A stretch of DNA of 64,000 nucleotides, taken from the NCBI GenBank assembly GCA_016786765.1, contig JAEUUZ010000060.1:1-64000 (forward strand). Direction: 5' to 3'. Positions within the stretch are counted from its first letter, which is position 1, and every line of letters starts with the position of its first letter. The stretch is from Chitinophagales bacterium. GTDB lineage: Bacteria > Bacteroidota > Bacteroidia > Chitinophagales > LD1. Under the pieces are notes generated by a model, which was not told the DNA's origin, searched no databases, and worked only from the letters and a program-made list of their open reading frames with translations. Positions 13,986-56,426 of this stretch are shown here, in pieces. The position numbers and the translations under genes were made by a program.

Positions 13986-14120
13986 AATAGTTTATGCAAT
14001 TAATTTTTCGGTTGTATGGTCGAGCAATTCGGTATCATTCGCTTTACAAGGTGATGTGTGGAAGAAAAGTACTTCAATGCTTTCAGTAAGTCAAGAAAAT
14101 AATGTTCAATTACACCGCAA

Positions 14121-14200
14121 TGCCGCGTGCGGGATGGCAGTGGAAATCCTTTTGTGAGGAACGAACAAAAGATTGAAACGGACAGCGCGGTTACACGCCC
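14121..14200 (-). repeat. Dispersed hairpin element, copy A
   Basis: Read on the minus strand: GGGCGTG at one end, then CGCGCTGTCCGTTTCAATC, a stem CTTTTGT...ACAAAAG, GGATTTCCACTGCCATC and CACGCGGCAT at the other end. The same framework with different stem sequences occurs at 16803-16894 (+), 56239-56340 (+) and, more diverged, 58414-58518 (-). The 13.97-14.29 kb gap otherwise holds only the next two repeats and no supportable gene. Confidence 0.6.
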
Positions 14201-51188: not shown

Positions 51189-51411
51189 GTTCTTCGAAAA
51201 CTTCTCCCATACAGAACAGATGCGATAGCTGGATAATTTAATCTAATACCGGACTATAATGCACTACCAATGGCGGGCTGCAATATCGGTTTTCCGATAT
51301 CCTCGTCCACAAAACAGGTTAACAGCAGATTACAGCGATAGTGTACAGTCCAAATCCTGACATGAGGCAGCTTATTCGTCAGGCGTTCTGTATGGGTTTT
51401 TTATTTTTTTT
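51189..51411 (+). ncRNA. Structured RNA candidate of about 210 nt (6S-like architecture)
   Basis: No gene covers this gap. CCCATACAGAAC (51206-51217) is perfectly complementary to GTTCTGTATGGG (51385-51396), which is followed directly by TTTTTTATTTTTTTT. Inside, GGACU...GCACUA pairs with UAGUGU...AGUCC, the tip is a perfect AUAUCGG-UUUU-CCGAUAU hairpin, and the 3' side of the large internal bubble carries CCUGAC...GUCAGG. A closing stem, a wide central bubble with a small 3'-side hairpin and a long apical hairpin resemble 6S RNA, though I recognise no conserved 6S sequence. A G-U pair that would be A-C on the other strand supports plus-strand transcription. A mobile palindromic element is the alternative. 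Confidence 0.5.
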
Positions 51412-52705
51412 GGAGTTCGCTGGCAGGAATAGTGAGTGTTCTTTTTAATTTGCCTCCTACACTATACACTTCAATTTTAGCTATTCGGTTACCCTTTTCT
51501 CCGGTAATAGAAATTTTACCAAAATTCTTTTTGGCATAATCTGATTCCAACACTCTATCGGCATTGTCATAGGCCCCTAACAATTTTCGGGGTAGGGCAG
51601 GTGTTGTAATCGGGGAACAGGTAAAATCATATACCGGGTAATCATTAATTACTCGTTTGCATACTTCGCTGTAATGCTTATCACCGGTAAGAAATATAAC
51701 GCCTTTGATGTTATTCAATGTAATAAAATCGATTAAATCGTTGTGCTCTTTTTTGTATTGTTCATACGATTCACCAAAACCGTTGGCATTCAATACTTGC
51801 GTTCCAATGGCAATAAATTTAAAGGTGGCATCGGAAATCTGTAATTTGTTTTTCAACCACACCAATTGAGTTTCGCCTAAAAATGCACAGGTGTCACAGG
51901 GCTCATCTCTAAAGCTACGGTTATCCATCATAAAGAACTCAGCATCGTGTTGCTGAAAAGAAAAATAGTTTCCATTCAACTGTTCCTTATGCGGATAGGT
52001 ATTGGGCCAAAAATGTTTGAAAACGAGTAAGGCAGTATCTTTTTTTACCCAATCTTTGCCACTGTCGTTCGGTCCGTAATCATGATCATCCCAAATCGCA
52101 TATTGTGGGGTTGAAGAAAGAAAATGGCTTAAACGACTGAATTTAGCGCGAATATTCATGTTGCGCGCGAACATCTTTTCGTACGATACATAATCGCGCT
52201 TGAAGTAATAGAGATTATCGCCCAACCAGACCATGAAACTAGGACGAGCTTTTTCCATGCTGCAAAATATCCTAGACGAGCCCCCCGGGAATGCACCTCT
52301 TAAAATTCCTGTTTCCAATAAAGCACAGGATCCCAGGGTAAACGAAAAATCGCGAATGCCTGAATCCGGTAATGTGCTGAAGGATGCCATAGCATTCTTT
52401 TTCCCTTTTTCAATCGATGCTACAACAAAATATTTTCGGTTGGGGACTAATTGTGTGAAATGAGCAACAGCAGCTCTATGCTCCTTTTTTGATTTAATTT
52501 CAGTAACTGAAGAAGGATAAAAAATTCGATTTGAAATGGTGTCGGTTAATACTAAAATTTGCTTTCCACGACCGAAGTATCCAATCCAAACTTTCGCTGA
52601 ATTATTAGTGACTGAGCCAACAATTGGTCCTGAAAAAATGCGTGCTTTTTGACCGAAAGACAGTAAACAAGCAAAAAGAAGCGCAAAGGCAAATTTAAAT
52701 TTCAA
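51401..52705 (-). CDS. PhoD-like alkaline phosphatase/phosphodiesterase family protein
   Basis: A 434-residue secreted metallophosphoesterase with signal peptide MKFKFAFALLFACLLSFGQ. An N-terminal Ig-like domain (GPIVGSVTNNSAKVWIGYFG) precedes the catalytic domain: GSCALLETG, MVWLGDNLYYFKRDYVSYEK, PQYAIWDDHDYGPNDSGKDW and FLTGDKHYSEV contain the metal-binding Asp, Asn and His residues of the PhoD family. It hydrolyses phosphomono- or diesters outside the cytoplasm. Its stop codon lies within the T-run of the RNA candidate on the other strand. It is 9 bases downstream of the pseudokinase gene and may belong to that transcript. Confidence 0.88.
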   Translation of the reverse strand: MKFKFAFALLFACLLSFGQKARIFSGPIVGSVTNNSAKVWIGYFGRGKQILVLTDTISNRIFYPSSVTEIKSKKEHRAAVAHFTQLVPNRKYFVVASIEKGKKNAMASFSTLPDSGIRDFSFTLGSCALLETGILRGAFPGGSSRIFCSMEKARPSFMVWLGDNLYYFKRDYVSYEKMFARNMNIRAKFSRLSHFLSSTPQYAIWDDHDYGPNDSGKDWVKKDTALLVFKHFWPNTYPHKEQLNGNYFSFQQHDAEFFMMDNRSFRDEPCDTCAFLGETQLVWLKNKLQISDATFKFIAIGTQVLNANGFGESYEQYKKEHNDLIDFITLNNIKGVIFLTGDKHYSEVCKRVINDYPVYDFTCSPITTPALPRKLLGAYDNADRVLESDYAKKNFGKISITGEKGNRIAKIEVYSVGGKLKRTLTIPASELQKK

Positions 52706-52714
52706 TGGATGTAA

Positions 52715-54661
52715 TTAATAGGGTGAAACAGTTACATAGATCTCATTCACTTGAAGTGTACTTCCTTTCGCATCAGACGCTCGTATACGGTCGAAAACAA
52801 TTTTTTGTCCGGGTTTTGCTTCTCGTATTTTATCCATCATTTCTTGTTGAAAAAGACTGGAGTTGCTGGTAGCTTCAAAAGGCACTTCTGCATTATCGAT
52901 GCGCATTCTGAAACTGGTAATGCGAATAGAAGGGTCTTGTGGAGACACTAACTGTAATCCTTGTTTGGCTAAAATTAGATTTTTGGGTGCATTCGTGTTT
53001 CTCAAATCGTTACCCACATAGGCTTTGGGGTCTGGTCGCGTACTCACGTTATACGTTCTACTGTCTATCGTCTCATTGGTCAGTTTATCTTTGAAAACAA
53101 GTGTAATTGGGCCTGTTTCGTTGGGTTTCACTAAATATAAGTTTCTACCTATTTCTTTAATTTGTGCACGTTGGTATAAACACTCCAACGTTGCAGGGTT
53201 AGCAGAACGGTATTTATTACCTAAGTCGATCGGATAAACTTGCTCATAGACCATATCAATTGCTGGTAGATACAACGATTCAGTAGTTGGCGGAGAAACA
53301 TTTGTTGCGACCGTTGCAATAGTTTCAGGTTTAACTACAGTAGAACCTAAAATATTGGAAGGCGATATTGATGTTGTGTATGTTGGTGTAGCAATTGTTT
53401 TTAAACTTAAAACAGATGAAGAGTCGTTACTTAATGGTACAGAATCACTCAATACCGTCAGTGCTGCAGCAATTGTGTTTTGCACATTCGTTTTTGTACT
53501 AATGGTCTTATTTGTAGTATCTGTGCTAAAAAATAAGGTTAAAGAGAAAATCAGCAGCAATAATGTTCCTAAAATTGGAAGCGAGGCTTTTTTGATAAAG
53601 CGAATGAACGATGATTGTTCGTTCTTAGCCTCCTCCATTTCAGGTTGTTGTTCCTCTAAGAAAGGCGTACCAAGTACAGCAGAAGCGTCTTCTTTTTCGA
53701 TTTCTTGTTCAGTCAATTGTTGTTGAACGACAGGGCGCAATTCGAGTTTCTCAATAACCGGTATTAAAATGGCATTATTTACCGGAGCTACTTGTTGAAA
53801 GGCAATGTTATCAACCGAAGGATTTTGCAATAACGCAATAATTTCTTCGGCACTTTCCGGACGGTGTTTGGCATTGCGTTGTAAGATTTTTTCCAATACC
53901 GAACGCAGATGTAAATCGCTAATTACACTAAAATCAATTCGCTCAAACGCAATACATTGAATGATTTGTTCCATGCGCTTCGAAGCATCGAAAAATAATG
54001 GTTTCCCGGAAATTAACTCGTACATAATTACCCCAAACGACCAAAAATCAGCCTTTTTGAGTAATTCACTATCGTTGGTTTCTTTAAAAAGTTCAGGTGC
54101 TTTGTAACAAGTGTTTTGCGCATCGAATTGCGATATAATACTTTTCGCGTTTACATTCAATGGCAAATAGTCGGCTATCTTTGGCGTCTTTTCAGCAGTA
54201 TTGTTCTTAATGAAAATATTACCGGGATGTAAATTTAAATGGTACGTATTATGTTCATGTAAGTATTGTACCCCCTTTAAAATGCCGGTTAAAAGTTTTA
54301 CTTGCTCTTCCTTCGAATCAAATAACGACATGCACTGTTTGAGTGCGCCACCCTCAATAAACTCAGAAACAACTACAATCGAGTTATGCGTTATACCAAA
54401 AGCATCGGTATTCGATTGTTCTAAGGTATCGTAGTACGAACATAAATTTGGATGAAAGAACAGAATTGCCTTTTTGGCGGCTTCAGTAAGCAAGTCGCTT
54501 TCATCTTTCCCTACCTGAAAAATGCGTAAACAAATAGAACGTTGCAGCAGTTTATCTTGCGAAATATACGTAGACACCCCTGCCCGTTTCGATAACAGGT
54601 TTTGTTCAGGATTAAACTCGTATCTTTCTTTAATGTTCAATGCATTCCTTTTTATACCCAA
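52715..54661 (-). CDS. Membrane-spanning pseudokinase fused to GldM-like periplasmic domains
   Basis: A protein of up to 648 residues. Residues 15-285 have a Ser/Thr kinase fold (VVVSEFIEGGALKQCM, YHLNLHPGNIFIKN, KIADYLPL, CYKAPELF, FWSFGVIMYELISGKPLF). However, the glycine loop is missing, the beta-3 Lys is Arg46, HRD is HLN (Asn143), and DFG is DYL with only the Asp (164) kept, so it is predicted inactive. One transmembrane helix (ILGTLLLLIFSLTLFF, about 352-367) is followed by a linker and two Ig-like units resembling the end of GldM: VYEQVYPIDLGNKYR, STRPDPKAYVG, ITSFRMRIDNAEVPFE and EAKPGQKIVFDRIRASDAKG. Starts are TTG at 54661 or 54640, both overlapping the upstream gene. It may bind T9SS/gliding-type motor parts. 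Confidence 0.75.
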   Translation of the reverse strand: MGIKRNALNIKERYEFNPEQNLLSKRAGVSTYISQDKLLQRSICLRIFQVGKDESDLLTEAAKKAILFFHPNLCSYYDTLEQSNTDAFGITHNSIVVVSEFIEGGALKQCMSLFDSKEEQVKLLTGILKGVQYLHEHNTYHLNLHPGNIFIKNNTAEKTPKIADYLPLNVNAKSIISQFDAQNTCYKAPELFKETNDSELLKKADFWSFGVIMYELISGKPLFFDASKRMEQIIQCIAFERIDFSVISDLHLRSVLEKILQRNAKHRPESAEEIIALLQNPSVDNIAFQQVAPVNNAILIPVIEKLELRPVVQQQLTEQEIEKEDASAVLGTPFLEEQQPEMEEAKNEQSSFIRFIKKASLPILGTLLLLIFSLTLFFSTDTTNKTISTKTNVQNTIAAALTVLSDSVPLSNDSSSVLSLKTIATPTYTTSISPSNILGSTVVKPETIATVATNVSPPTTESLYLPAIDMVYEQVYPIDLGNKYRSANPATLECLYQRAQIKEIGRNLYLVKPNETGPITLVFKDKLTNETIDSRTYNVSTRPDPKAYVGNDLRNTNAPKNLILAKQGLQLVSPQDPSIRITSFRMRIDNAEVPFEATSNSSLFQQEMMDKIREAKPGQKIVFDRIRASDAKGSTLQVNEIYVTVSPY

Positions 54662-56045
54662 ATAAATGTTTCTCCGTAATCAGCTCAGCTACCTTTTCAG
54701 GCACAGCCGCTTTCCAAGTATCATCACCGGCTTGAATAGAGGTAATAATTTTGTCGGAGAAAATGTTCAATAAATCGGGGTGGGAATTTTCAGAGTCCAC
54801 TATGAGGTTGTTGGATATTAAATGATGGTAGATATGGCTTAAACTCTCGTCTACGCGAAGGGTTGTTGTATCTACTACTTTCTGTTCTGATTTTGAATAA
54901 TACGGATAGGCAATCATAACCGTTTCGCCACGGAAAATACCGCCAAAGTAGGAGAGTAGTTCACTAGGAGCGCTGTAATAATTCTCTTTTTTAAATAACT
55001 CAATCAAGTTCATTACCCCTACAATAATGCCAATTTTCTTGGTTTTGCAACGGGTAAAGAAATCAATCAATTTATCGTGCTTATCGCAATTCGATACCAA
55101 AACAGTATGTCCTAATTGACACAATAATTCAGCTCTATCTAAGAAATCAGTAGGATCGTGGTCTTCATCACCCATCAAATTGTTGAGGGTCAATTCTGAA
55201 AGCGAAATAAATTGTTCGTCATCCGCCAAACGATGTTGGAACGTTAATTCCCCGCTTTTTTGCATGTCTTCGCTCAGCAAAGTGTATGGACGAAACCTAC
55301 TGCGTAAACACAACACATTCTTCTTGTATAAGAAGTCTTTCGGTTGATAAACTTCTCGTTTGCTGCCGAAAATAGTAGCATCCGTATAGCCTTTCTTTAC
55401 TAGTTTCAAAGCTACTAAGCGGTTATCGATATCAAAGTTTTCGCCATTAATACGCACTAAATCAATCTCAATTTGATCTACGCTTAAATTGTCCATTAAC
55501 GAATCAATAAAAGCATTGATATCGGTGGAATACCAAAAACAAGCAAAAATCAAATTCACGCCAACACCACCAATCACACGCTGTTGCAACAACGCATCGT
55601 TGTCTTTCAAACGAATATGCACAATCACATCGTTATAGCCACCACCCGGAGTAAGCTGAAACCGAAGTCCCATCCAACAATGCGGGTCGTTGGTTTTCGT
55701 ATAATTTAAAATGGAACAAGTATTGGCATACGCAAAAAAACGTTTGCCTTCGTATTCATCGCCCACTAAGCGTTCGCCCAACAATTCATACTCATGTGTA
55801 AGCATTTTGTTAAGACGCGATTCGCTTACATAACGACCGCTTTCTTCTTCGCCATAAATAGAATCTGAAAAGGCCATATCGTAGGCCGACATGGTCTTAG
55901 CCACTGTGCCCGAAGCGCCACCTACCTGAAAGAAGGTTCGGGCAACTTCCTGACCTGCACCAATTTCAGCGAAAGTCCCGTAAATAGAACCTTCCAAATT
56001 GATACGTAGCGCTTTCCGCTTGATGGATATAACTTCTCTGCTCAT
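54630..56045 (-). CDS. Conserved Bacteroidota cytoplasmic protein of unknown function
   Basis: Start MSREVISIKRKALRINLEGS at 56045 gives 471 residues. The sequence IYGTFAEIGAGQEVARTFFQ and GGASGTVAKTMSAYDMAFSD is very characteristic of a conserved family that, as I recall, is often misannotated as TonB-dependent receptor or nicotinate-nucleotide adenylyltransferase; there is no signal peptide, beta-barrel or nucleotidyltransferase HxGH motif. The Rossmann-like segments HTVLVSNCDKHDKLIDFF and KKIGIIVGVMNLIELF suggest an alpha/beta enzyme. It overlaps the pseudokinase start by 11-32 bases, so the two are translationally coupled and probably act together. Confidence 0.8.
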   Translation of the reverse strand: MSREVISIKRKALRINLEGSIYGTFAEIGAGQEVARTFFQVGGASGTVAKTMSAYDMAFSDSIYGEEESGRYVSESRLNKMLTHEYELLGERLVGDEYEGKRFFAYANTCSILNYTKTNDPHCWMGLRFQLTPGGGYNDVIVHIRLKDNDALLQQRVIGGVGVNLIFACFWYSTDINAFIDSLMDNLSVDQIEIDLVRINGENFDIDNRLVALKLVKKGYTDATIFGSKREVYQPKDFLYKKNVLCLRSRFRPYTLLSEDMQKSGELTFQHRLADDEQFISLSELTLNNLMGDEDHDPTDFLDRAELLCQLGHTVLVSNCDKHDKLIDFFTRCKTKKIGIIVGVMNLIELFKKENYYSAPSELLSYFGGIFRGETVMIAYPYYSKSEQKVVDTTTLRVDESLSHIYHHLISNNLIVDSENSHPDLLNIFSDKIITSIQAGDDTWKAAVPEKVAELITEKHLFGYKKECIEH

Positions 56046-56238: not shown

Positions 56239-56340
56239 GGGCGAGTTCCTCTGGGAATCGGAACCGCGCTGTACGTTTCAATCTTTATCCCGCTGTGAAG
56301 CGGGAAAAGGATTTTCACTTCCATCGCTCTCGCGGGCATA
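56239..56340 (+). repeat. Dispersed hairpin element, copy B
   Basis: GGGCGAGTTCC, CCGCGCTGTACGTTTCAATC, stem TCCCGCT-GTGA-AGCGGGA, AAAAGGATTTTCACTTCCATC and CTCGCGGGCAT. It shares its framework with 14121-14200 (-) and 16803-16894 (+). An additional hairpin GGTTGGT...ACCAACC upstream (56192-56213) may belong to the same element. The 430-base gap between the conserved protein and the toxin-antitoxin pair holds no gene. Confidence 0.6.
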
Positions 56341-56426
56341 GTGCACGGAAGGTAGTTTTGTTGTTATAACGAATTATCTGTAGACAGCATCAACCAAACG
56401 GAAAAAATTGGCAAAAGAATATCGAA

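Follow-up and report, generated by a model that had tools for sequence, protein, structure and literature searches.

The window, meaning the whole stretch of 64,000 nt that was analysed, carries on its minus strand a gene (52715..54640) for a 641-aa protein in which a kinase-like fold is followed by one transmembrane (TM) helix and a periplasmic end of the PorM/GldM type. The longest version of the same open reading frame (ORF; 52715-54661, minus strand) starts at TTG 54661, encodes 648 aa and is used for numbering here, while the start is most likely TTG 54640 (MNIKERYE...), as homologues begin with MNSREFKERY and the sequence AAGGA stands just upstream. The frame is intact, and both minus-strand ORFs lie where an earlier, sequence-only reading of the DNA had placed them; the motifs that it quoted, namely Arg46 (ICLRIF), Asn143 (HLNLHPGN), STRPDPKAYVG, ITSFRMRIDN and AKPGQKIVFDRIRASDAKG, are all present in the protein. 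The domain order is real, and a chimeric or mis-assembled ORF was ruled out by the same architecture in five other genomes.

The gene is closely flanked on both sides. As the earlier reading had stated, the upstream gene (54630..56045, minus strand; 471 aa) overlaps its start, by 11 nt from TTG 54640 or by 32 nt from TTG 54661. Its product has no Pfam match and is predicted to consist of a CinA/PncC-like part (1-177) and an NMNAT/NadD-like part (240-465). In an AlphaFold2 (AF2) model with a mean pLDDT of 88, residues 4-177 match CinA/PncC-type proteins (Z 16.7) and residues 240-464 match NMN/NaMN adenylyltransferases (Z 16.2). In the second part, the HxGH motif that is usual for such proteins seems to be replaced (FRPxTxVN in the consensus), which makes activity uncertain. 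On the other side, a gene for a PhoD-like phosphatase with a signal peptide (51401..52705, minus strand) starts 9 nt after the pseudokinase stop and probably belongs to the same operon. It was not found next to homologous fusions (5 loci), and none of the window neighbours of the pseudokinase adjoins any of these five. The window also contains two matches to the Flavo-1 RNA (Rfam RF01705), one at 56258-56341 (minus strand), about 200 nt upstream of the pseudokinase operon, and one at 14117-14196 (plus strand).

Catalytic state and distribution of the kinase domain

The cytoplasmic Hanks-type kinase domain spans residues 8-280 (53822..54640, minus strand), as delimited by Pfam PF00069 and alignments. 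The Pkinase match (residues 55-273; E 4.1e-25) scores 89.1 bits, far above the Pfam gathering cut-off of 31.7. A general kinase-like false positive was ruled out, with 2,399 distinct PDB sequences matched by the kinase-domain profile. Alignment confirmed the losses that had been read from the sequence: the glycine loop is gone (region 54554-54598, minus strand), the β3 VAIK Lys is replaced by Arg46 and the HRD Asp by Asn143 (HLN), and the catalytic-loop Lys has also become His. The catalytic-loop Asn147, the DFG Asp (D163), APE, DxW and the HPN scaffold motif are kept. Judged by these residues, the window protein has the Hanks-type fold but is not an active kinase of that type; it is a true pseudokinase.

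One sister genus has full-length relatives of the fusion in five of its seven genomes, and the two without are 73-77% complete. Elsewhere, the architecture was not found among roughly 770 different Bacteroidota genomes, a sample rather than an exhaustive set; a D3-D4 profile was searched against 398 genomes from the order and 392 from the phylum, and the whole fusion protein against 392 plus 100 genomes, with overlap between samples. The only other genome of the window’s own genus (87% complete) has no fusion; the kinase that it encodes is an ordinary one in which the canonical motifs are present. A tree built on 34 kinase domains unites the six fusions in a single group (support 100/98), which therefore has one origin. 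Around this group stand other kinases of the order, whose extracytoplasmic parts are diverse; a formylglycine-generating enzyme (FGE)-like domain is one of them. The window copy has a branch length of 3.37, compared with 0.04-0.32 for the other fusions, and such long branches make its exact place in the tree unsure.

All five sister-genus copies (ICIK, HLDIKPGN, D[FC]L) keep the Lys, Asp, Asn and DFG Asp, while their HRD Arg and DFG Gly are lost and their glycine loop reads AEGTYSRV. Nearly all other kinase relatives examined retain HRD and DFG. The sequence-only reading had been staked on homologues without active kinase residues, and this holds by half: the sister copies are loosened in their motifs and yet retain the residues named above. 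Since they do so, catalytic loss appears to be late and local, with the fusion clade loosening first and the window lineage going further. In the sister genus, the copies may retain kinase activity.

No active phospho-signalling set was found in the window genome by a survey of Pkinase, PP2C_2 and FHA, with SpoIIE-type phosphatases lying outside the search. The pseudokinase is the only Pkinase match above the Pfam cut-off, and neither PP2C_2 nor FHA has any match. This makes a non-catalytic role of the pseudokinase likely.

The membrane segment and the D3-D4 module

Between the kinase domain and the membrane lies a Glu/Gln-rich cytoplasmic juxtamembrane segment (residues 281-358; 53588..53821, minus strand), which terminates in RFIKK directly ahead of the helix, in agreement with the positive-inside pattern. 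Hydropathy places the single TM helix at residues 359-378 (53528..53587, minus strand). It is followed by an 86-aa Ser/Thr-rich periplasmic linker (residues 379-464; 53270..53527, minus strand), which is probably flexible, and by two domains that resemble the end of PorM/GldM: a D3-like Ig domain (residues 465-541; 53039..53269, minus strand), assigned by profile against PorM 6ey5/6ey6/7cmg, AF2 and fold search, and a D4-like domain (residues 542-648; 52718..53038, minus strand), assigned in the same ways and by GldM_4th (PF12080).

The assignment to PorM/GldM D3-D4 holds over both domains. GldM_4th is matched with an E of 1.6e-8 and 35.6 bits (Pfam cut-off 24.6). A D3-D4 profile built from the six fusion proteins only, and thus free of any GldM, finds PorM as the sole significant entry in the PDB (6ey5 2.7e-7, 6ey6 3.1e-7, 7cmg 8.2e-7), with both domains covered. 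The AF2 model of D3-D4 (184 residues, 20 sequences) has a mean pLDDT of 86 and a pTM of 0.63; Foldseek places PorM and GldM at the top (E 1.3e-11 to 7e-9, then 1.5e-4), and the VIA-align Z values are 15.3 for 7cmg, 15.0 for 6ey6, 14.6 for 6ey5 and 13.7 for 6ey4, the next row falling to 8.5. Because GldM rows were present in the alignment behind this model, the fold match is not free of that choice; the profile search of the PDB is. When the fusion D3-D4 is compared directly by BLAST with GldM of the same genome, no match results (E 1.9), and profiles are therefore needed to see the link. The earlier proposal of a kinase-like fold, one TM helix and two C-terminal Ig-like units of GldM type is thereby backed by Pfam profiles for both halves, by a predicted fold that matches PorM/GldM and by homologues. 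The full-length GldM family, with its N-terminal TM, D1 and D2, does not include this protein: TIGR03517 (NCBIfam) reaches only 22.7 bits (E 3.6e-5) against a cut-off of 180, and over residues 501-642 only.

Two smaller proteins carry parts of the same module. In the window genome, a 123-aa signal-peptide protein (L148:8676-9047, minus strand) consists of GldM D4 alone (TIGR03517 E 1.2e-7), and another genome of the family (L164) encodes a secreted D3-D4 protein of ~221 aa.

Known systems and the type IX machinery

Compared with PorM/GldM (6ey4, 6ey5, 6ey6, 7cmg; TIGR03517), the pseudokinase has D3 and D4 in the same order and a single membrane anchor, and its D4 is of the type that binds PorN in PorM. 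Unlike PorM/GldM, it lacks the D1 helical bundle, D2 and the PorL-binding N-terminal helix, and in their place it has a kinase fold in the cytoplasm and a long linker. In its overall layout it resembles EssB/YukC (6Z0F), a single-pass pseudokinase that serves as an interaction hub of type VIIb secretion (PMC9600267, PMC12599244). Both have an N-terminal cytoplasmic pseudokinase, one TM and an extracytoplasmic domain (organisation per PMC9600267), and in both the glycine loop and catalytic motifs are degraded. However, the extracytoplasmic fold and the secretion system differ, and the EssB family profiles (Pfam, NCBIfam) give no match to the window protein at E up to 1. The shared organisation is an analogy, by which EssB/YukC is the closest functional analogue.

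A kinase domain, a single TM and a modular extracytoplasmic part are likewise found in PknB/Stk1-type Ser/Thr kinases (NF033483), from which the window protein differs in having no PASTA repeats and in its lost catalysis (NF033483 61 bits vs a cut-off of 450). Also similar is a kinase-TM-FGE protein of genome G033 (L149:8008-10302, minus strand), whose related kinase domain is about 32% identical and is also followed by a single TM. In contrast to the window protein, it has canonical catalytic residues, an FGE-like periplasmic domain and a PP2C-like phosphatase nearby. Its FGE-like domain is a fold used also by PorK/GldK, and the gene is adjoined by the PP2C-like gene and by a second FGE-like protein. 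No mention of a GldM-kinase fusion, or of GldM-like domains outside GldM, was found in the literature, the coverage of which is incomplete, and GldM goes unmentioned in a recent review that covers the pseudokinase families of bacteria (PMC12599244). The window protein is of a known transmembrane (pseudo)kinase kind, and its periplasmic module is new to that kind.

In published work, PorM D4 alone suffices for PorN binding in two-hybrid tests (PMC5790014), and PorM S460 cross-links to PorN A241 (PMC12421860); the equivalent of S460 in the window protein is in the hairpin around residues 587-593. Given these contacts, a protein with D4 at its end could extend to the GldKN ring and make contact with it, and docking of the pseudokinase there, as suggested in the sequence-only reading, is plausible by analogy with PorM. 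The window genome has a porP-gldK-gldL-gldM-gldN operon elsewhere, and no synteny was found between fusion genes and genes of the type IX secretion system (T9SS). The gldM gene co-occurs with the fusion in 6/6 genomes; this carries little weight, as many members of the order have a T9SS. Between the window genome and the sister genus, identity is 89-96% for gldK, 75-77% for gldN and 64-69% for GldM D3-D4, and only 27-29% for the fusion D3-D4. This fast divergence argues against an unchanged GldN interface, as an interface kept for the same partner should be better conserved.

Possible roles of the fusion

The reading preferred here, with a probability of roughly 40%, is that the D3-D4 tip binds the type IX machinery and that the kinase fold relays or scaffolds without phosphorylation. 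The protein would then be a single-pass inner-membrane pseudokinase that works as a trans-envelope adaptor. Its tip, on the ~86-residue flexible linker, would bind the T9SS, and the contact would most likely be with the GldKN ring on its GldN face, or with GldM through pairing of D3 domains. Inside the cell, the kinase fold would relay or scaffold this periplasmic contact to cytoplasmic proteins, as EssB/YukC does in type VII secretion. A more specific version is more doubtful: a dedicated T9SS pseudokinase, the counterpart of EssB/YukC, would touch the GldKN ring with its copy of the GldM tip and report the state of the ring to, or recruit, cytoplasmic proteins, and the transition from kinase to pseudokinase would be visible between two genera.

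Nearly as likely as binding to the ring or motor is that the protein is a transmembrane receptor kinase of the common bacterial type with a sensor borrowed from GldM, the ligand of which has since changed and is something in the periplasm other than the GldKN ring; it would be a pseudokinase here and may still phosphorylate in the sister genus. This agrees with the position of the clade among kinases with varied extracytoplasmic parts, with the catalytic residues kept in the sister copies, with the low identity of the fusion D3-D4 beside GldM D3-D4 from the same genomes, and with the secreted solo D4 and D3-D4 proteins, which show the module in use apart from the motor. However, the D3-D4 order is exactly that of PorM, beyond the needs of a generic Ig sensor, and the window genome has no visible phospho-signalling set (Pkinase, PP2C_2, FHA). 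It is rather improbable that the gene is a relic, drifting after loss of function in the window lineage. The very long branch, the survival of just the Asn and the DFG Asp among the key catalytic residues, and the lack of a fusion in the one other genome of this genus (87% complete) fit such drift, but the 648-aa frame is intact, start and stop lie 9-11 nt from the neighbours in an operon-like manner, and the kinase scaffold motifs, the TM helix and both periplasmic domains are kept. Very unlikely is the earlier proposal that the overlapping upstream gene encodes the cytoplasmic partner of the pseudokinase. Although the 11-32 nt overlap and probable co-transcription speak for a pair, the upstream family is common across the Bacteroidota, with matches in at least 592 stretches of other genomes and a fusion-type kinase in the flanks of none of 80 fetched loci, the upstream gene lies beside none of the five homologous fusions, and its model has the fold of enzymes of NAD metabolism. 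No conserved two-gene system is thus seen, and the upstream product is most likely, from its model, an NAD-metabolism-like neighbour with no reason for partner status.

If the preferred reading of a T9SS-binding adaptor holds, its value would lie in a connection. The power of the T9SS and its cytoplasmic control have to date been poorly connected, the link described in the literature covered being the binding of PorX to PorL (PMC5005315), and a kinase fold inside with a ring-contacting motor tip outside would give a direct physical route between both. An inner half that is a kinase without its catalytic residues and an outer half that copies the GldM tip are a rare combination, which may link the cell interior to the T9SS. 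The fusion is also a compact case of the change from kinase to pseudokinase inside one architecture, and it shows the PorM tip to be a portable module. Within the order, a second and apparently independent pseudokinase (L047) carries the motifs HGNLQPQN and GFAL.
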